In this document: positions 37,183-59,652 of the stretch, in pieces
Layout: each line of letters starts with the position of its first letter
Position numbering within the stretch: position 1 is the first letter of the stretch
Origin: Salibaculum griseiflavum
Lineage (GTDB): Bacteria; Pseudomonadota; Alphaproteobacteria; Rhodobacterales; Rhodobacteraceae
Assembly: GCF_003129565.1 (NCBI RefSeq)
Contig: NZ_QETF01000018.1
Span: 1 to 64,000 of the forward strand
Direction of reading: 5' to 3'
Length of the DNA stretch: 64,000 nt
Notes under the pieces: model-generated
What the model was told of the DNA's origin: nothing
The model's input: the letters and a program-made list of their open reading frames with translations, nothing else
Database searches by the model: none
Program-made: the position numbers and the translations under genes

Positions 37183-40100
37183 TTATGATTTCCTCTCGTT
37201 CGGGTTGTCGTCGGGGCGCTCCTCGACCGTGGGGCCGAAGGAGCGCACGATGTTGATGAGATCGGTGAGATCGGCCTCGTCCTCGAACACGCCGTCCGGT
37301 CCGTCGGCGTCGACCACAGTGAAAGGATCGTCGTAGAGCCGCTCGACCTCGATGGTGCCGTACCGCGCGATGTGGTTTTGAAGCAGTGCGAGGAAGCGTG
37401 TCTGCTTAGCGCTCAGCTTCGGATGCTTCTGGACGAAGGCGGTGAACTTCTCTCGCACCGCCTCGGGGTCCATGCCTACGATCATCCGGATCGCAAGATA
37501 GAGCGGACCAGCGGTCTCACTGAAGAACTCCTCAAGGTGCTCGCGCTGCACGTCCGGGTGCTGCGTCAGAATGAGCGAAACGAGCGAGTCGATTTCGCGG
37601 TCGGACACGGCCTCGCCGGCGCGGATCTTCTTGAGGACCGGGTTGGTCTCGAAGTGCTTTTTGAGCTCCGCTTCGACGATCTGTTGGTAGGCTTTCATGT
37701 CGACAGATTTCAGGCTTGCCGAGCGACGAGCATACTGCATCTGCCCGGCATCCTCGGTAATATCGACCACCTTCGGGGGAATGCCCTGCGAGCTACCCTT
37801 GGCGCGATGATGCATGATCTCACGAAGCTGGAGGCGTGCATCCTCCAGATCAGCGACCGTTACATCCTGCCAGAAGCCATCAGACTTCACGCGCTTGATG
37901 ACTTCGGCCTTCTCGCGCACCGGGTTCAAGTGCATCTGGAGAGATGCCAGGCGGTCAAGGAGTTCGATCTTCAGATCGGAAATCTCACCCGAGCCACGAA
38001 GCACCGCAATCTGCATGCGCGCGATAAGTAGGTCGAGTGCAAGAGCGTCACCAAAGCCACGAATGTTTCGCCATTGCATCAACGGGGCGATCTCTTGGCG
38101 CAGCCTGGCGACCGTCGCTGGGGCGAATGCCTTCAATACCTCAGGACGAGATAGCGCGCGCTTCTCCTTCCATTTCTCCCGAACCGCGATGGATTCTTCC
38201 GGCAGGGCATTGATGTCGTGTTCCACGAGCTTGATGACAGCGTCGAAGACCGCGATTTCGCTTTTCTGAAGGGCGATCTCCGCAACGCTCAGCCGCTCCT
38301 CGAAGACCAGCTGAGCAAGCGGCTTGCCCTGCGTGGGCTCGGCAGGGCGATAGCCCATCTCGAAGCGAGCGAAATTGCCCCAATGGTCGAAAATGCGGAA
38401 CACGCTCTTGTGCTGACCGGGACCGAAAAGGTCAGGACAGAGGCGCGTGCCCCGGCCGATCATCTGCCAGAACTTGACGGGTGACTTTACCGGCTTCGCG
38501 AACACCAGGTTCACGATTTCCGGAATGTCGATCCCCGTATCAAGCATGTCGACCGAGATCGCGATGGTCAGATCGTTGTTGGTACCTTCGCCCTTGAAAT
38601 CGTCGATCAACTGCTCGGCTCGTGGATCGTAGTTGTCGATCACCTGGCAGAACTTGCCGGCGTACTGCGGATACATTTCATCGAAGAGCTGACGCATCAG
38701 CATCGCATGCTGATGGTTGCGTGCAAAAATGATGCTCTTTCCTAGGATTTGTCCGGTCGCATCCTTGATCCCGTTTTCCATCAGGTTTCGGAGGATCGCG
38801 CGGTTGGTGTCCTTGTTGTAGATGACCTTGTCGATCTGCTCCGAGGAGAAGTCATACTGCGCCGGGTCCTCCCCCTGGTCTTCGAGCTCCTGGATCTGCT
38901 GCGGCGACAGGCCATCGAGGCTGATGCCGTCGCGGAGAAACTGCGTCGTGTGCTCATAGACCTCGAATGGGGTCAGGTAGCCTTCGTGAACCGCCTGTTC
39001 GAGATCGTAATTCGACGTGGGAAGCTGCCCTTCGCACCCAAAGAGGCGGAAAGTGCTCCTCGTAACGAAGTCGACTGGCGTCGCGGTAAGCCCCACCTGA
39101 TGACAGTCGAAATAGTGAAAGATGTCTCCGTAGACGTTGTAGATGCTTCGATGAGATTCATCCGCGATGATGAGGTCGAAGAAGCCAGGGTCGAAAGACT
39201 GGAAGACCTTTTGCATTGCGGGATAGGTCGCAAGGAAGACGCGCTCACTGGCGTTCGTCCTCACGCGTGATGTGATGATCCGCGTGGGCTCCGAAAGGAA
39301 GTCGTTGAAGGCGTTCTTGGCCTGCTTCCGGAGTTCCTTGCGATCGCAGAGGAAGAGGACCCGCTTGACCCAACCGGCCCTGATCAGAAGGTCCGTCAAC
39401 GCGATCGCAACGCGTGTCTTGCCTGTACCAGTGGCCTGAACCACCAGCGCCCGACGGTGCTTCTGTGAAAACCGCTCAGAAACCCTTTTGATCGCTTCGA
39501 GCTGGTATAGCCGATCCACGATCTGATCGCTGATCGCGACTGTGTCGAGGGGCTGTTTGTTGTGCCGCTGGTAGTTGGCCAGATGCTGAAGGCTGTCCTT
39601 GGAGTAGAAGCCATAGAGCTTCCGCGGAGGAAAGTCCTGCGCGTCGTCCCAAATCCAGATGTCGAAGCCGTTCGTGTAGAAGATTACCGGGCGGTGCCCA
39701 TACCGCTTTTCAAGGCTATCGGCATAGAGTTTGGCTTGATGCCGACCAAGTTCGGCATCGGTCGAGGTCTTCTTCGCCTCGATCACGGCCAGCGGGTTCC
39801 CGTTGTCATCCCACAGCACGTAATCGGCGTAGCCGATGCCCGTAGCGGTAGGTTGTCCGTCGACCTCGACTTCCTTGCCCACTTGGGTCGTGTTCTTGAC
39901 GCCTTCTGCGATATCCCAGCCGACGCTCGCCAACATGCTATCGATGAGGCGCGTTCGGGTTTCTGACTCGCTGAACTGAAGTTCATCGGCCGCTGCCTGT
40001 GCCGAGCTTGCTAGCTGCTTGAGCTCAGCCGCTTCCTTCTGGGCGGCGGTTGCTTTCGAGCGCGCTTCTTCGAGCTCCGAAAGCAGCGCGTCCATCTGCG

Positions 40101-52373: not shown

Positions 52374-53131
52374 CATTGGACTTCAATCACCGCCCGTCCA
52401 CGACGGAACGTATCAACACGCTGGTCGATGCCGCTCTCATCGCTGAGCGGGAGGCTGCGCCGCTCCGGACCTATCTCGGCGCGTCCCGCCTGGGCCACGC
52501 CTGCGAACGCGCGTTGCAGTTCGAATTCGCCGGTGCGCCTAAAGATGAGGGGGCGGACTTCAGCGGGCAGACGCTGCGGATCTTCGCGATTGGTCATCAG
52601 CTCGAGGACCTCGCCATCCGCTGGCTGCGCGCGGCCGGGATCGATCTAGTGACCCAAAGACGCGATGGTGGCCAGTTCGGTTTCTCCGTCGCGGGCGGAC
52701 GTATCCGGGGACATGTCGACGGGATCATCGCTGACGCCCCGGCAGCACTTGGTTTGCACACCCCGGCGCTCTGGGAATGCAAGACCATGAACGCGAAGAA
52801 CTGGCGCGCCTGCGTCAAGGACGGGGTGACTGTCTCCAAACCCGTCTATGGCGCCCAGATCGCGATCTACCAGGCCTACATGGAGCCTTCGCTGCCGGGG
52901 ATTTTGTCCGCACCGGCGCTTTTCACGGCAATCAACAAGGACACGGCCGAGCTTCACCACGAGCTTGTCCCCTTCGATGCCGATCGAGCGCAGCGCATGT
53001 CCGACCGGGCGGTGCGGATCCTGCAGGCTACCGACGCGGGCGAACTGCTGCCCCGCATCGCCACCAGTCGCGACTTCTTCGAATGCCGGTTCTGCGCCCA
53101 CGCCGAGCGGTGTTGGAGCCTCACTGCATGA
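52370..53131 (+). CDS. PD-(D/E)XK nuclease with Cas4-like cysteine set
   Basis: 253 residues from TTG 52370. The nuclease core shows GHQLE (H76, E79), D117 in GHVDG and E136-C-K138 (ECKTMN). Three C-terminal cysteines (C239, C242, C248 in FFECRFCAHAERCW) with C45 upstream mirror the Fe-S cluster ligands of Cas4 and AddB. It is expected to be an exonuclease that prepares single-stranded ends for the recombination proteins encoded nearby. Confidence 0.83.
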   Translation: MTLDFNHRPSTTERINTLVDAALIAEREAAPLRTYLGASRLGHACERALQFEFAGAPKDEGADFSGQTLRIFAIGHQLEDLAIRWLRAAGIDLVTQRRDGGQFGFSVAGGRIRGHVDGIIADAPAALGLHTPALWECKTMNAKNWRACVKDGVTVSKPVYGAQIAIYQAYMEPSLPGILSAPALFTAINKDTAELHHELVPFDADRAQRMSDRAVRILQATDAGELLPRIATSRDFFECRFCAHAERCWSLTA

Positions 53132-55506
53132 CCGACGAGCCAAGCGATCCATACGACCCCGACCAGGACAAACCCATGCGCGACGACACAACGCCCGACA
53201 AGCCCGCGGAAAACATCGTCCATTTCAACCCTTGGCGCGACTTCAACGATGCTGCTCCGCAGATTGACGTTTTCGGCGATGAGCCGGACCCTGCGCAGAT
53301 CGCCCAGTTCATGCAGGTCGTCTTCGGCTATTGCGATGGGCTGATCCCGGTCCGTAGTTTCATTGACAAGGGCCAGGGCATTGATGGCCGCCCGCACAAT
53401 ATCTGGCTCGAGGCGGAACAGGCCGCCCCAGAGAAGATGGCAACCTTCGCCACATGGGCCTCACGCGAGGGCGCAGCGGTCTACGTGATACCCGGCACCG
53501 TTGCTGCGTCAGGCCAGGCCAAGGCCGCGGAAATCCTGCAGATGCAAACCGTGGTCGTCGACCTCGACACGGGCGACATTTCCGCAAAGCGTGCTCATCT
53601 GGAGCGCCATCTCGGTGCGCCGACCATGGTGGTGGAAAGCGGTGGTGCGACGCTGGAGGGCCAGCGGAAATCGCACATCTGGTGGACGCTGACCGAGCCT
53701 GCCGAGGGTGATGACATTCGCCGTGTCTGCGGCTTGCGCGGTGACATTGCGGCCAAAGTTGGCGGCGACATGCATTTCCGCTCGGCGCATCAGCCGATCC
53801 GGGTGGCGGGTTCGGTCTATTACAAGAACCACCTCAAGACGCAGGTGCGCATCGTCGAACTGAACGCCGCCCACGAGCGTGATCTGGATGAGTTCATCGA
53901 AGCCGTGACAGACATGCCGCCCGCACCGGGCGTATCCCTGCAGCCCGAGTTCACCCATGCGGACAAGCTCGCCGTGGACGAGGTGCTGGTGACGCCGGCG
54001 CGTGAGGGGGCGCAAGACGACTGGTCTCGCTTCGAGGGTGCCAGCGCCGCGATCGGGCATTTTATACGTATGGTCCACGAGGGCCGGATGACCAAGGGTG
54101 AGGGCTGGGAAGGCATCTGTGGCTACAACGCCGCGATGTTGCGACCGCAGTGGCCGGTCGAACGTCTCAAGCGCGAGTCCGAGCGGCTCTGGGATCGGCA
54201 TGTCGAGAAATACGGACCGCCGGTCATCCGATTGGACTCCGGCGCACCGGGGCCGGTCGAGATGCCCGCTTTCACACTCGGCGCGCTGCTGGACGACCAG
54301 AGCCCGATGCCGGAGGACATCATCGCACCGCGCGTGCTCACGCCGGGCGGGCTCTTGGTACTGGGCGGCGCGCCAAAGGTCGGCAAAAGCGATCTGCTGA
54401 TCTCCTGGCTCGTCCACATGGCGGCAGGCGCGCCGTTCCTCGGCTTCACCCCGCCGCGGGCGCTACGCATTTTCTACCTTCAAGCGGAGATCCAATATCA
54501 CTACCTGCGCGAACGGCTGAAACAGATTGCCTTGCCACCGGAGGTGCTAGCTGCCGCGCGCGATACCTTCGTCGCGACACCCAAGCTGAAGATGTTGCTC
54601 GACAATGAGGGCAGTGTGCGCGTGGCGCGTGCTGTCCAGACGTCTTTCCCCGATGCGCCGCCGGACATCCTTTGTGTCGACCCGATCCGGAACTTGTTTG
54701 ATGGCGGGCCCGATGGTGGCGGCGAAAACGACAACACGGCCATGATGTTCTTCCTGAAGGAACGCATCGAGGTCTTGCGTGACCATATCGACCCCGATTG
54801 CGGGGTAGTCTTGGTCCACCACACCAAGAAACTCAGCAAGCAGCAGGTGAAGGACGATCCCTTCCTCGCACTCTCTGGCGCCAGCGCGCTGCGCGGCTTC
54901 TATACCTCAGGCCTGATCCTGCACCGGCCTGACGACGAGGCCCCCGAACGCAAGCTGGAGATCGAGCTCCGGAACGGACCCGCGCTGCCCTCCAAGCTGA
55001 TCGACAAGGTCGGCGGCCAATGGGTCGAGATCAACCCGATGAACGAGCGGCTGGTTCGTAAGGAGGCCGGAGCCAAGCACGACGCCGAGCGCAATCGCAA
55101 GGGCGAGGTGATCTGCGGTCTGCTGTACGAAGAGGCCCTTCAGGGTCGAATGTACACGATGACCCATTTCGCGGAGACCTTCGAGAACACCGGGGGTCTC
55201 GGCGGGCAATCGATCATCCGCGAACGGCTGAACGTGCTGACCACAAAAGGCTACGTGAAGTTCGTTCGTGGGGCCGCTGCGACGGCGTTGGATCTGGCGA
55301 CCGAGCGGAGCAAATACGGCTACCTTTGCGTCGAGACCATGCGTCTTGCGACCGGCCGGGAGCATGTCGATCCCGACACCGGAGAGGTCACGCTGGAGCT
55401 GATCGAAGTCCTGCCCAGCCACTACAAATGCGCGCAGACCGGTGCGGTCCTGCCCGTCGAAAACCCGTCCGTATGGGTCTATCGCGAATTGGAGGACGCA
55501 GGATGA
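53128..55506 (+). CDS. RepA/primase-like AAA ATPase of the phage replication module
   Basis: 792 residues from the ATG at 53128. The N-terminal half (about 50-330) resembles RepB-type primase/polymerase domains (VVVDLDTGDISAKRAHLERHLG, MVVESGGATLEGQRKSHIWWTLTEP). The C-terminal half is a RepA-like AAA_25 ATPase with Walker A GGAPKVGKSDLL near 412 and VVLVHHTKK. This fusion fits a replication initiator helicase-primase. It is followed in overlap by a repeat-rich small ORF. Confidence 0.8.
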   Translation: MTDEPSDPYDPDQDKPMRDDTTPDKPAENIVHFNPWRDFNDAAPQIDVFGDEPDPAQIAQFMQVVFGYCDGLIPVRSFIDKGQGIDGRPHNIWLEAEQAAPEKMATFATWASREGAAVYVIPGTVAASGQAKAAEILQMQTVVVDLDTGDISAKRAHLERHLGAPTMVVESGGATLEGQRKSHIWWTLTEPAEGDDIRRVCGLRGDIAAKVGGDMHFRSAHQPIRVAGSVYYKNHLKTQVRIVELNAAHERDLDEFIEAVTDMPPAPGVSLQPEFTHADKLAVDEVLVTPAREGAQDDWSRFEGASAAIGHFIRMVHEGRMTKGEGWEGICGYNAAMLRPQWPVERLKRESERLWDRHVEKYGPPVIRLDSGAPGPVEMPAFTLGALLDDQSPMPEDIIAPRVLTPGGLLVLGGAPKVGKSDLLISWLVHMAAGAPFLGFTPPRALRIFYLQAEIQYHYLRERLKQIALPPEVLAAARDTFVATPKLKMLLDNEGSVRVARAVQTSFPDAPPDILCVDPIRNLFDGGPDGGGENDNTAMMFFLKERIEVLRDHIDPDCGVVLVHHTKKLSKQQVKDDPFLALSGASALRGFYTSGLILHRPDDEAPERKLEIELRNGPALPSKLIDKVGGQWVEINPMNERLVRKEAGAKHDAERNRKGEVICGLLYEEALQGRMYTMTHFAETFENTGGLGGQSIIRERLNVLTTKGYVKFVRGAAATALDLATERSKYGYLCVETMRLATGREHVDPDTGEVTLELIEVLPSHYKCAQTGAVLPVENPSVWVYRELEDAG

Positions 55507-55862
55507 AATACGCAGTTTCGCCTTCCGAAATCTGCCCTGACGGCTCCGAAATCTGGCCAGATTTTGCAAAATCTGAAATCTTTGCGAAATCTGGAATCTG
55601 GATTTTACCATTTGGTTTCAGCGACTTGGAAGGTCCTATCCAGATTTCGGAAGGGTGTTTCCGAAATCTGGTCCGCAATCTGGATTTACTCAACAAAATC
55701 AGTGGCCTGCGCCAGATTTCAGATTTCAGAAAAGTCCCCCCTAAAGGGGTAGGTGTCCTCCCCGCTACAGGCGGGGAGAGTCACCACCTACCCCTGAGCA
55801 ATTTCTGGGGTCGCAGTCTGACCCGTTCCACCCCTCGAGCAGCCAATCAAAAAAGGAGATAG
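55503..55862 (+). CDS. Repeat-rich small ORF overlapping an iteron-like array
   Basis: 119 codons, starting in ATGA overlap with the primase gene. Much of the peptide simply reads out a DNA repeat (EIW, EIC, EIF and SDF units), so coding is doubtful. The 3' third spans a nested hairpin, where translation would be disturbed. It may be a real but fast-evolving gene or just an open frame over regulatory DNA. Confidence 0.35.
   Translation: MKYAVSPSEICPDGSEIWPDFAKSEIFAKSGIWILPFGFSDLEGPIQISEGCFRNLVRNLDLLNKISGLRQISDFRKVPPKGVGVLPATGGESHHLPLSNFWGRSLTRSTPRAANQKRR
55527..55727. repeat. GAAATCTG/CAGATTTC repeat array
   Basis: The exact octamer occurs at 55527, 55548, 55586 and 55663 forward, and at 55641, 55713 and 55720 reversed. 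Close variants lie at 55558, 55568 and 55594. Some form palindromes: AAATCTGG/CCAGATTT at 55549-55564 and CCAGATTTCGG-N10-CCGAAATCTGG at 55640-55671. Density and placement after an initiator-like gene suggest iterons of a replication origin, or a regulator binding array. Confidence 0.7.
55745..55795. other. Nested hairpin before the RuvC-like gene
   Basis: Outer arms AGGGGTAGGTG (55745-55755) and CACCTACCCCT (55785-55795) are perfect complements. They enclose inner arms CTCCCCGC (55758-55765) and GCGGGGAG (55771-55778). The structure lies about 70 bp before the next start codon and could act as an attenuator or RNA processing site. Confidence 0.55.
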
Positions 55863-55865
55863 CCC

Positions 55866-56402
55866 ATGGCGGACCAGACCATGACCAACCCCAATCAGAA
55901 CCCCGTCCAAAATGTGCCACCTGCGTTTACCGGCCAGCGCACATTGCTGGCGCTCGATCTCGGTACAACTACGGGCTGGGCGCTGCATGGCGCCGACGGG
56001 CTGATCACCAGCGGTACCGTGTCCTTCCGTCCTAGCCGGTTTGATGGCGGTGGGATGCGCTACCTGCGCTTCACAAATTGGCTGGGAGAGTTGGAGCGGT
56101 TGTCCGGGCCTATCGCTGCCATCTGGTTCGAAGAGGTCCGTCGCCACGCGGGCACCGACGCGGCCCATGTCTACGGCGGCTTGATGGCCACCCTGACCGC
56201 ATGGGCCGAGATGCGCGGCGTGCCATACGAGGGCGTCCCGGTCGGCACCATCAAGCGCCACGCCACCGGCAAGGGCAACGCCAACAAGGACGCCATGATC
56301 GCGGCCGCCCGGGCGCGCGGCGTCAGCCCCGCCGATGAAAATGAAGCTGACGCCATCGCGATCCTGCTCTGGGCCATGGAAACCCAAGGAGGTGCGCAAT
56401 GA
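55866..56402 (+). CDS. RuvC-like Holliday-junction resolvase
   Basis: 178 residues with AAAAGGAGAT upstream. RNase H-like fold with acidic residues D31 (LLALDLGTTTGWA), E89/E90 (WFEEVRRH) and DENEADAIAI near 157-166, and the lysine-rich KGNANKD motif between. Phage RuvC-type resolvases cut branched DNA before packaging. It overlaps the next gene by 4 bp. Confidence 0.83.
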   Translation: MADQTMTNPNQNPVQNVPPAFTGQRTLLALDLGTTTGWALHGADGLITSGTVSFRPSRFDGGGMRYLRFTNWLGELERLSGPIAAIWFEEVRRHAGTDAAHVYGGLMATLTAWAEMRGVPYEGVPVGTIKRHATGKGNANKDAMIAAARARGVSPADENEADAIAILLWAMETQGGAQ

Positions 56403-57142: not shown

Positions 57143-58036
57143 TTATTGGACCGGAGCTTGCACGCTCTTGCCCGTCATATAGAAGTTTGCGATGTCCTCT
57201 TCGGAGGCGGCACCCGCTTCTTCCGTGGTAAAGAACCATGCCGGGAACTTCTGAGAGCCGCGGCGTTCATCCCTTATCCTAAGAATTGCCGAATGCTCCA
57301 AGTGGACATACCACCCTACATCCCGTGCAGCGAGGGTTACTGCGCGGATATCTGTATAGTCGGTCATTCGACCAACCATCGCCAATCTGCTTCCCGCGGT
57401 ACCCCACCGTCGCCAAGCCGCCATGTACTCTCGAAAATGCGTACGACCATCCTCAGCGCATCCCGGACAGTACGAAGCGAGCCCGCATTGGGCGGCACTG
57501 TGTGGCTTCTTTGACGGAGGTATGCTCGAGTTGTCATAGCCGAATTCGCATACGATTAACTCGTATTCATCATCTGGTTCTGCTGTCTGATAATCTCCGG
57601 CAATCAAGTCCAAATTGGTGAGAGACCTTCCGATCTCGATAAGGTTTTTCGCCTCATCAATTCCGTTTAACACCAGATGCGGGGCTTTCCTCTGGAGATA
57701 GTTGATCAGTAGGCCAGCACCGCAGCCCATCTCGACCAATGATGTCGGATTTGTCCGCTCAACCAAGTCCGCGATCCAACCCATCGACACGATGTATCGA
57801 TCTGCGTCATGTGAGAAGAGGGTGCACGCCTGCTTGAGGTTCTTTGGGACAGTGTACAATTCGCTGCTGATATCCAGTCCCATAGCCGCCGCTGACCAGA
57901 CCTGTTCAACAGTTTCTTGATCTTCTGGAGAGAGCATCTTGTAGAAGCGTTTATCCAGCTGGGCTGGTTTTGCATCAAAGATGAAGCCCGAGTCTTTGAG
58001 ATATTTTCGTGGGTTCAGCTTGGTACCTTGAGCCAT
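57143..58036 (-). CDS. SAM-dependent methyltransferase-like cargo gene
   Basis: 297 residues on the minus strand between two plus-strand phage blocks. Motif I is SLVEMGCGAGLLINYLQ (about 103-119), followed by the acidic LNGIDEAKNL. A four-cysteine or similar segment AAQCGLASYCPGCAEDG may bind zinc. A+T-richer than its neighbours. It resembles small-molecule or protein class I methyltransferases more than DNA methylases, since no NPPY/DPPY motif is seen. Target unknown; likely lysogenic cargo. Confidence 0.7.
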   Translation of the reverse strand: MAQGTKLNPRKYLKDSGFIFDAKPAQLDKRFYKMLSPEDQETVEQVWSAAAMGLDISSELYTVPKNLKQACTLFSHDADRYIVSMGWIADLVERTNPTSLVEMGCGAGLLINYLQRKAPHLVLNGIDEAKNLIEIGRSLTNLDLIAGDYQTAEPDDEYELIVCEFGYDNSSIPPSKKPHSAAQCGLASYCPGCAEDGRTHFREYMAAWRRWGTAGSRLAMVGRMTDYTDIRAVTLAARDVGWYVHLEHSAILRIRDERRGSQKFPAWFFTTEEAGAASEEDIANFYMTGKSVQAPVQ

Positions 58037-58419: not shown

Positions 58420-59652
58420 ATGGACGTTTTGGAACTGCCGCTCGAGCAGATCATTCCCTATGCGCGCAACCCGCGGCGCAACGAGCAGGCGATCGCGACG
58501 GTTGCGGCGTCGATCCAGGAGTTTGGTTGGCGCCAGCCTATCGTTGTCGATGAGGCGATGGTGGTTCTCGCTGGACACACGCGGCTTGAGGCCGCGCGCA
58601 AGCTCGGTTTCAAGACCGCGCCTGTGCATGTCGCCAAGGGGCTGACAGAAAATCAGGCGCGGGCCTTCCGCATCATGGACAACCGCTCCAGCGAGAACGC
58701 TGAGTGGGATAAGGACTTGCTGAACCTCGAACTCGCCGACCTGCTGGAGGCGGATTTCGATCTCGGGCTGACGGGCTTCACAAACGATGAGCTGGACGCG
58801 TTGACGGCGAGCCTTGAGGAGGGCACCGGTCCGCAGGAAGGTGAAGACGATATTCCGGACAAGCTGGACGATCCGATCAGCGGTCCAGGCGATCTCTGGG
58901 TTCTTGGCAACCACCGGCTGCTCTGTGGCGACAGCACTGTTGCCACCGATGTCGAGCGCCTGCTTGGCACCGTCACACCGCTGCTCATGGTAACAGATCC
59001 GCCCTATGGCGTGGAATATGATCCCAGCTGGCGCAACCAGGCAGGCGCAGCCAAGACCGAGCGCACCGGCAAGGTGCTGAATGACGACCGCGCTGACTGG
59101 CGCGAAGCCTGGGCGCTATTCCCGGGCGATGTGGCCTATGTCTGGCACGGCGCGCTGCACACGGCCACGGTCGCTGAAAGCCTTGAAGCGGCGGGCTTCA
59201 CCATCCGGTCCCAGATCATCTGGGCCAAGGACCGGCTGGTGCTCAGCCGGGGCGATTACCATTGGCAGCATGAACCGGCCTGGTACGCTGTCAAAAAGAC
59301 CGGCAAGGGCCATTGGGCAGGGGATCGCAAGCAAACGACGCTCTGGCAGATCGCGAACAAAGATCAAGACGACAAGACGGTCCATGGCACGCAGAAGCCA
59401 GTGGAATGCATGCGCCGGCCGATCCTGAACAACTCCAGCCCGGGTCAGGCGGTCTATGAGCCCTTTATGGGATCGGGCACCACGCTTATCGCGGCGGAAA
59501 CGACGGGGCGGGTTTGCCTCGGCATTGAATTGAACCCGGCTTACGTCGATGTGGCGGTCCAGCGTTGGCAGAAATTCACAGGCAAGCAGGCCATGCTTGA
59601 CGGAGACGAGCAGACCTTCGATGCCCTGAAAGCTGAGCGCGAGGCCGCATGA
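58420..59652 (+). CDS. ParB-domain DNA methyltransferase
   Basis: 410 residues. The N-terminal ParB/sulfiredoxin-like domain (1-110) includes ARNPRRNEQAI and GHTRLEAARKLG. The methyltransferase domain has catalytic DPPYGVEY (193-200) and the later SAM motif EPFMGSGTT, the order of beta-class N6-adenine/N4-cytosine methylases. Phages use such fusions to protect their DNA. Its stop overlaps the next start (ATGA). Confidence 0.9.
   Translation: MDVLELPLEQIIPYARNPRRNEQAIATVAASIQEFGWRQPIVVDEAMVVLAGHTRLEAARKLGFKTAPVHVAKGLTENQARAFRIMDNRSSENAEWDKDLLNLELADLLEADFDLGLTGFTNDELDALTASLEEGTGPQEGEDDIPDKLDDPISGPGDLWVLGNHRLLCGDSTVATDVERLLGTVTPLLMVTDPPYGVEYDPSWRNQAGAAKTERTGKVLNDDRADWREAWALFPGDVAYVWHGALHTATVAESLEAAGFTIRSQIIWAKDRLVLSRGDYHWQHEPAWYAVKKTGKGHWAGDRKQTTLWQIANKDQDDKTVHGTQKPVECMRRPILNNSSPGQAVYEPFMGSGTTLIAAETTGRVCLGIELNPAYVDVAVQRWQKFTGKQAMLDGDEQTFDALKAEREAA

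Follow-up and report, generated by a model that had tools for sequence, protein, structure and literature searches.

A repeat array behind a prophage repA gene as a putative iteron origin, exchanged together with the C-terminal domain of its candidate initiator

The replication region considered here lies in a stretch of 64,000 nucleotides from Salibaculum griseiflavum (contig NZ_QETF01000018.1 of assembly GCF_003129565.1, positions 1 to 64,000, forward strand), which is called the window below. It carries a phage block, in which genes for a Sak4-like annealing protein, a helicase and a Cas4-type exonuclease precede, and terminase genes follow, a dense array of short repeats. An earlier note, made from the letters of the window without database searches, had placed this array directly after a RepA/primase-like gene, and the matches of the protein to Pfam AAA_25 and PHROG 239 bear this out. 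The array very probably represents the iteron block of a prophage origin, and comparison with related sequences suggests that the RepA C-terminus, the array and a closing hairpin are exchanged as one specificity cassette. The genes and borders of this cassette are as follows.

53128-55506, plus strand: repA, 792-residue primase/helicase-like replication protein, candidate initiator (Pfam AAA_25, PHROG 239)
55036-55503, plus strand: RepA C-terminal domain, predicted winged-helix-like part and beta tail, candidate iteron reader and left part of the cassette (from the model and motif covariation)
55745-55795, no strand assigned: strong hairpin at the end of the cassette (-46.6 kcal/mol and z -3.5 when 55728-55830 is folded)
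55866-56402, plus strand: RuvC-like resolvase gene, right border beyond the cassette (PHROG 159, E 1.3e-30)

The octamer GAAATCTG occurs seven times exactly, on both strands, at 55527-55727, and elsewhere in the 64 kilobases (kb) only at 37704 and 41274. In 100 dinucleotide shuffles of the whole window its count was 2.4 on average and 7 at most, and none reached the observed 9. Strict counting (non-overlapping copies within 200 base pairs, bp) gives six; every 8-mer of the window with a strict count of at least 4 belongs to the array, and in 20 block shuffles no 8-mer came above 3. The seven exact octamers of the earlier note are thus present in both orientations, far above shuffles, while its near copies number five and not three if up to two mismatches from the 9-mer GAAATCTGG are allowed. 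Such sites amount to 12 in the 201 bp directly 3′ of repA, in both orientations, and some overlap in a 7-bp register. The perfect palindromes that had been described are also found, an example being the fully (100%) complementary 13-bp arms at 55640-55652/55659-55671. The guanine-cytosine (GC) fraction is 0.445 in the array vs 0.631 in repA. The candidate iterons are listed below.

55527-55535, plus strand: iteron GAAATCTGC
55548-55556, plus strand: iteron GAAATCTGG, head-to-head with the iteron at 55557-55565
55557-55565, minus strand: iteron AAAATCTGG
55568-55576, plus strand: weak iteron AAAATCTGA, 2 mismatches
55575-55583, plus strand: weak iteron GAAATCTTT, 2 mismatches, in 7-bp register with 55568-55576
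55586-55594, plus strand: iteron GAAATCTGG
55593-55601, plus strand: iteron GGAATCTGG, in 7-bp register with 55586-55594
55640-55648, minus strand: iteron GAAATCTGG
55663-55671, plus strand: iteron GAAATCTGG
55675-55683, plus strand: iteron GCAATCTGG
55712-55720, minus strand: iteron GAAATCTGG
55719-55727, minus strand: iteron GAAATCTGA, in 7-bp register with 55712-55720

Relatives of RepA were sought in 147 genomes, a family sample of 394 genomes, four viral-contig scans and one genome scan. They occur in 19 of the 147 genomes and in 59 of the 394, the own genome and weak or partial matches being counted; the viral and genome scans contributed their best 80 loci each, and the sample leans to close relatives. 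The 418 RepA matches were reduced to 406 with sufficient flank and protein, to 321 distinct loci and, by removal of six with internal stops or a short protein, to 315. The window (locus L008) was merged with a truncated duplicate, L002, which later failed the length filter, and it is therefore absent from the class statistics of the 315 loci, which describe relatives only. The loci fall into 34 clusters by their RepA C-terminus, and the closing hairpin occurs in three types, A, B and C, which go with these clusters. A RuvC-like gene lies beyond the array in 297 of the 315 loci.

In the first 88 loci, four of which are copies of the window, a repeated word is mostly present 3′ of repA, and it is not always GAAATCTG. 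The earlier note had counted absence of the octamer from related phages as a refutation of its reading; the octamer is indeed absent in many of them, yet another word stands at the same place. The best 8-mer score exceeds the maximum of all 963 shuffles in 225 of 321 loci. Besides GAAATCTGG, the words of other lineages include GTGTTCTGG, AAACTGG, AACTCCTC and GAGGACGAACA. Pooled motif finding per C-terminal cluster gives words that include CCAGATTTC, CCAGAACACGG, CCGGATTCTGG, AAACTGG, AAGTTGGG, AACTCCTC, GAGGACGAACA and ATGACAGAGG; of the 14 clusters with at least five loci, 13 have 5.4-12.3 sites per array. At the sequence level the array is well documented for most C-terminal clusters, cluster 6 excepted.

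The choice of word follows the C-terminus of RepA. The body and the C-terminus of the protein vary independently (Spearman 0.018), and motif similarity correlates at 0.43 with the C-terminus vs 0.19 with the body. As far as residue 640 the partial correlation with the motif ranges from -0.04 to 0.12; it rises to 0.50 at residues 760-789. Among RepA pairs with bodies 95-99.9% identical, the median C-terminal identity is 0.97 if the motif is the same (870 pairs) and 0.54 if it differs (398 pairs). None of the 5411 pairs with C-terminal identity below 0.50 has a common motif (similarity >0.5), and 92% of the 1092 pairs above 0.95 do. Class changes were counted on FastTree trees for 202 of the 216 non-redundant loci, with classes defined as components of at least three loci. 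For the 14 motif classes, the C-terminal tree takes 13 changes, which is the minimum, and the body tree 93, compared with 136-147 if the labels are shuffled; the 34 C-terminal clusters take 111 changes on the RepA-body tree, although counts of this kind are inflated by unsupported branches. The RuvC-like gene on the other side of the array correlates with the body (Spearman 0.585) and far less with the motif (0.131) or the C-terminus (0.013; 275 loci). It tracks the body and not the cassette, and therefore nearness alone is not the whole cause of the covariation.

The DNA itself points to transfer of the cassette as a unit. In five example pairs, a single low-identity block of about 0.6-0.9 kb covers the C-terminal domain, the array and the hairpin. 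Measured per 100 bp, the identity is 80-98% until 500 bp 5′ of the RepA stop. It falls to 50-75% within the 400 bp that end at the stop and to 17-47% in the 100 bp just past it, and is back at 81-98% from +500, which places the block between about 400 bp before and 100-500 bp after the stop. Loci L010, L027 and L041 carry, as noticed by eye, an inverted repeat ACGACGGCGG...CCGCCGTCGT before the RuvC-like gene; it is not found in the window and might be a crossover point of the cassette. A second kind of change is seen among 15 type A arrays with 12 words, which were picked by eye. Most of their site positions are common, in two sub-layouts, with L089, L101 and L287 deviating in part. The head-to-head pair, the last sites and the spacers are shared, and the word is changed in all copies together.

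The spacers resemble the consensus of integration host factor (IHF), WATCAANNNNTTR, as given in the available part of PMC10380432. Of 315 arrays, 130 have an exact copy (2 after shuffling, 2 on the other strand) and 212 have one with up to one mismatch (21 after shuffling, 37 on the other strand). The distance to the closing hairpin is 118-123 bp for 153 of the 212 sites, in type A and B arrays and across 21 clusters, and 24 of the 34 cluster representatives have a site with up to one mismatch. The window holds weaker versions at the two places known from relatives.

55616-55628, plus strand: IHF-like element at the first of these places, which is conserved in relatives; 2 mismatches, a level that does not exceed chance for the window by itself
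55697-55709, plus strand: IHF-like element at the second position known from relatives, 2 mismatches

As for the hairpin, a function as a terminator was considered and rejected, TTTT being present in just 14 of 278 loci. A search of four loci against Rfam returned one sub-threshold match only. There, a stretch that begins at a type B hairpin (L010:1209-1305, minus strand) resembles BjrC68, a small RNA family of Bradyrhizobiaceae (25.8 bits with a gathering threshold of 39, E 0.006), and the BjrC68 family might itself be a prophage origin hairpin.

The candidate reader belongs to a primase/helicase-like protein. Residues 387-568 match Pfam AAA_25 (E 8.5e-20) and residues 403-787 match PHROG 239, "DNA primase/helicase" (E 4.1e-27); a Pfam scan up to E 1 adds only one sub-threshold Tudor match. 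Among phage records, RepA matches only nine Wolbachia phage records, with the best places inside residues 349-631, and relatives of the helicase part in Wolbachia phage WO are 38-51% identical. The genome of the window encodes a second RepA of this family (L027, G000:C16:2574-4907), which is 80% identical and has a different array word, AGTTTCGG. The AlphaFold model of the C-terminal domain has a mean predicted local distance difference test (pLDDT) score of 85.7. Many winged-helix proteins are among the structures closest to model residues 10-114 in VIA-align, at a middling level (Z 5.4-7.0); the rows include the KAT6A winged helix, MarR/MepR, Fur-like proteins and the MCM C-terminus, the class of some of them being presumed. 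Structure alignments covered 54 of 60 and 35 of 40 offered relatives, plus the window. Confidence in the full-length model is low (pLDDT 70.3, predicted template modelling score 0.39), and a sequence search of the PDB with the full alignment gave only two chance-like matches.

The following mechanism is proposed. The winged helix at the RepA C-terminus would bind the roughly 10-12 iterons in both orientations, and IHF would bend the DNA at the two fixed spacers. The primase/helicase part of RepA would then load and prime, so that replication would start at the array. The winged helix, the array and the closing hairpin appear to be exchanged as one block between otherwise similar phages, and in type A arrays, with their common layouts, every copy of the iteron word has moreover changed along with the C-terminal domain. 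The array, its common layout, the match of motif class and C-terminus, the exchange as a block and the open frame described below can all be read from the sequences compared. The earlier note had likened the array to iterons of a phage origin, and this is favoured by the arrays 3′ of repA in relatives, the motif-C-terminus match and the fixed IHF-like sites.

Several observations weigh against the proposed origin. Binding by RepA and origin function at the array are steps that we infer from the patterns above. No crisp switch of GC skew occurs at the array, where a change of strand bias had been proposed as a check, and no DnaA box with up to one mismatch is present at 53-58 kb. The IHF-like sites of the window have two mismatches each, a level reached at three other places in the array. 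The score of 96 of the 321 arrays does not exceed the highest 8-mer shuffle score; these include all 65 loci of cluster 6, the largest C-terminal cluster, with type B hairpins, and 16 of cluster 8. Pooled motif finding in cluster 6 gave no clear iteron (3.5 sites per array), and all 28 pairs with C-termini more than 85% identical and motif similarity below 0.1 are in this cluster. The motif classes were built by single linkage on shared repeated 6-mers, and the closeness of C-terminus and array adds linkage, for which the RuvC-like side controls in part. The columns that best track the motif (677/678, 717/722 and 772/775) lie outside the recognition helix, by a crude method, and are only suggestive of specificity residues. 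Foldseek gave no match to the C-terminal model with E of 0.001 or lower, the best E being 0.02. Lastly, no avoidance of common motifs is seen among co-resident prophages: the 23 pairs from 21 genomes, a repeated pair with identical values (2619619046 / Shimia haliotis) being counted once, include three with a common motif (similarity >0.5), the background rate being 8.5% (P 0.44, low power). Beside these points, it may be noted that the IHF-like spacer and the hairpin are conserved in cluster 6 (e.g., L016-L018 and L109), where the repeat set is weak.

Among the other explanations, the best placed is an operator array that serves control only. RepA or another regulator would shut off the replication operon or pair copies there, and the origin would lie elsewhere. 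Covariation of the array with the C-terminus is expected from any sequence-specific binder, and the array stands between two genes of one direction, as an operator might. The domain that tracks the motif, however, sits in a primase/helicase-like protein, as in self-loading initiators, and the IHF-like spacers of relatives and the low GC suit an origin, which leaves this explanation unlikely.

The repeats could also act as structured RNA or single-stranded DNA, for example as priming or packaging hairpins, in which case complementarity and not reading by a protein would keep the copies alike. The array folds to -82.2 kcal/mol (z -5.5), lower than any shuffle, with many inverted pairs, and a strong hairpin follows it. 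Inverted copies, however, fold well by construction, and many direct copies, some overlapping in the 7-bp register, retain the motif. Tracking of the RepA C-terminal domain by the word is not predicted by such a function, and the explanation is judged very improbable.

An open reading frame (ORF) over the array, reported in the earlier note, does exist, and it defines one more feature of the putative origin.

55491-55496, plus strand: Shine-Dalgarno-like GGAGGA before the ORF on the RepA stop, read from sequence
55503-55862, plus strand: ORF of 119 codons and stop, which starts in the RepA stop (ATGA), runs through array and hairpin and ends just before the RuvC-like gene; without a match in PHROG

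Among the 285 loci with a TGA stop, 176 have the same ATGA at the RepA end, 87 of 87 of type A among them, and it is the majority form in 21 of the 34 clusters; only 8.5% of third codon positions near the RepA end are A. A Shine-Dalgarno core precedes 137 of the 176, vs 11% at random places. A looser count, with any of three start codons on the RepA stop, gives 198 of 315, which is partly trivial, and the ATGA count is the stricter one. Of 82 type A loci, 98% have no stop in the ATGA frame across the array, vs 17 and 13% for the other two frames; in the 76 type C loci the values are 100% vs 9 and 64%. The ATGA frame is open in 16 of 17 cluster representatives of types A and C, vs about 1.6 expected from shuffles, these representatives being related and hence not independent. 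The RuvC-like frame, for its part, runs without a stop back to repA in 142 of 297 loci.

A repetitive peptide selected as a product would account for the ATGA start, the Shine-Dalgarno cores and the frame kept open in type A and C loci. The peptide itself, however, appears to be under little amino-acid constraint. Of eight clusters, five have no excess of third-position change, clusters 8 and 12 have a slight one and cluster 0 has one of 1.7-fold (codon-position rates of RepA, obtained in three clusters for comparison, are such as 0.064/0.018/0.294), and two ORFs over arrays had no match in PHROG. Copies on both strands preserve the DNA word, and in type B the open frame varies by cluster, with none in cluster 13. 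Coding repeats are therefore regarded as a highly improbable explanation of the array. We infer that the open frame reflects selection for passage of ribosomes over the putative origin, which might counter transcription polarity.

The earlier note had thought an unknown mobile repeat equally possible. A mobile or intergenic repeat that is dispersed and stands after repA by chance is already contradicted and hardly credible: the 11-mer CCGAAATCTGG does have four single copies beside the three in the array among its seven in the genome, but each outlying copy has one octamer within 500 bp, a RepA C-terminus is no more than 300 bp away from each of the 40 viral-contig stretches found with a 19-bp core, and the array has no blastn match in phage and plasmid records.

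The putative RepA origin can be compared with several known systems. Lambdoid O proteins show type specificity, and O recruits the host helicase via P; here, unlike lambdoid O, the helicase and the candidate reader form one protein. The array also begins past the RepA stop, in a separate frame, and not inside the initiator gene as in lambda O. Phage P4 alpha unites primase, helicase and origin reading in one protein, with iterons of both orientations in ori and crr; the Pfam and PHROG scans of RepA, to which this comparison is limited, did not name it. Type I restriction specificity subunits, in which the recognition part is swapped between conserved flanks, offer an evolutionary analogy only. 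Among lambdoid phages each initiator has its own iterons, replication modules are replaceable, and ITN1 lies within gene O, according to the available text of PMC3349717; the matched initiator and iterons and the iterons inside a reading frame resemble lambdoid O/ori (lambda, P22). Rep of the staphylococcal pathogenicity islands (SaPI) is described, in the accessible part of PMC7581432, as a helicase and initiator that recognizes short iterons through its C-terminal domain, the origin with these iterons lying immediately downstream of the rep gene. The origin position 3′ of rep and the C-terminal reader, here suggested by covariation, are shared with SaPI Rep/ori and with Cch2 of the staphylococcal cassette chromosome SCCmec (PMC7581432, same part). 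Unlike in SaPI, the helicase is by annotation of the AAA_25 and not the DUF927 or Primase_Cterm/D5 type (PMC7581432), and the IHF-like spacers, the closing hairpin and the frame over the array are features without mention for SaPI in that part of the source. In geminiviruses, the iterons differ among close relatives and the reading domain of Rep changes along, which the portion of PMC12548392 at hand calls diversifying selection. Those are plant viruses with rolling-circle replication and iterons upstream of Rep. No account of the present RepA-array family was found in the open-access literature on alphaproteobacterial phages and iterons (including PMC6536676 and PMC10783043, as far as their text was available). 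Specific matching of initiator and iterons has precedents in SaPI, lambdoid phages and geminiviruses.

A wider proposal, whose chances we consider evenly balanced, concerns a large family of alphaproteobacterial temperate phages. In these, the origin would be joined with the DNA-reading domain of the primase-helicase in one exchangeable cassette, 0.6-0.9 kb long and occurring in at least 14 specificities. Coordinated iteron change on a fixed scaffold of IHF-like spacers, dyad and 7-bp register would create new words, which would spread by exchange, and diversifying selection for replicon identity would keep them distinct. The origin would lie inside a translated frame whose peptide hardly matters and which ribosomes cross. 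Why iterons and initiators diversify is a question already raised for geminiviruses (PMC12548392, available portion). Many matched initiator-iteron pairs on one protein scaffold and with common DNA layouts amount to a natural experiment, in which specificity, cross-talk among co-resident phages and the way in which a many-copy site changes step by step are directly testable. Such pairs could give orthogonal replicons for alphaproteobacteria and could help to predict cross-replicating prophages.

Two further genes were noticed downstream in the window. A weakly methyltransferase-like gene (below the Pfam cut-off) lies on the opposite strand at 57143-58036, with low GC (0.52-0.53). Near the replication block, at 58420-59652, a ParB N-terminal domain is fused to an N6/N4 DNA methylase domain.
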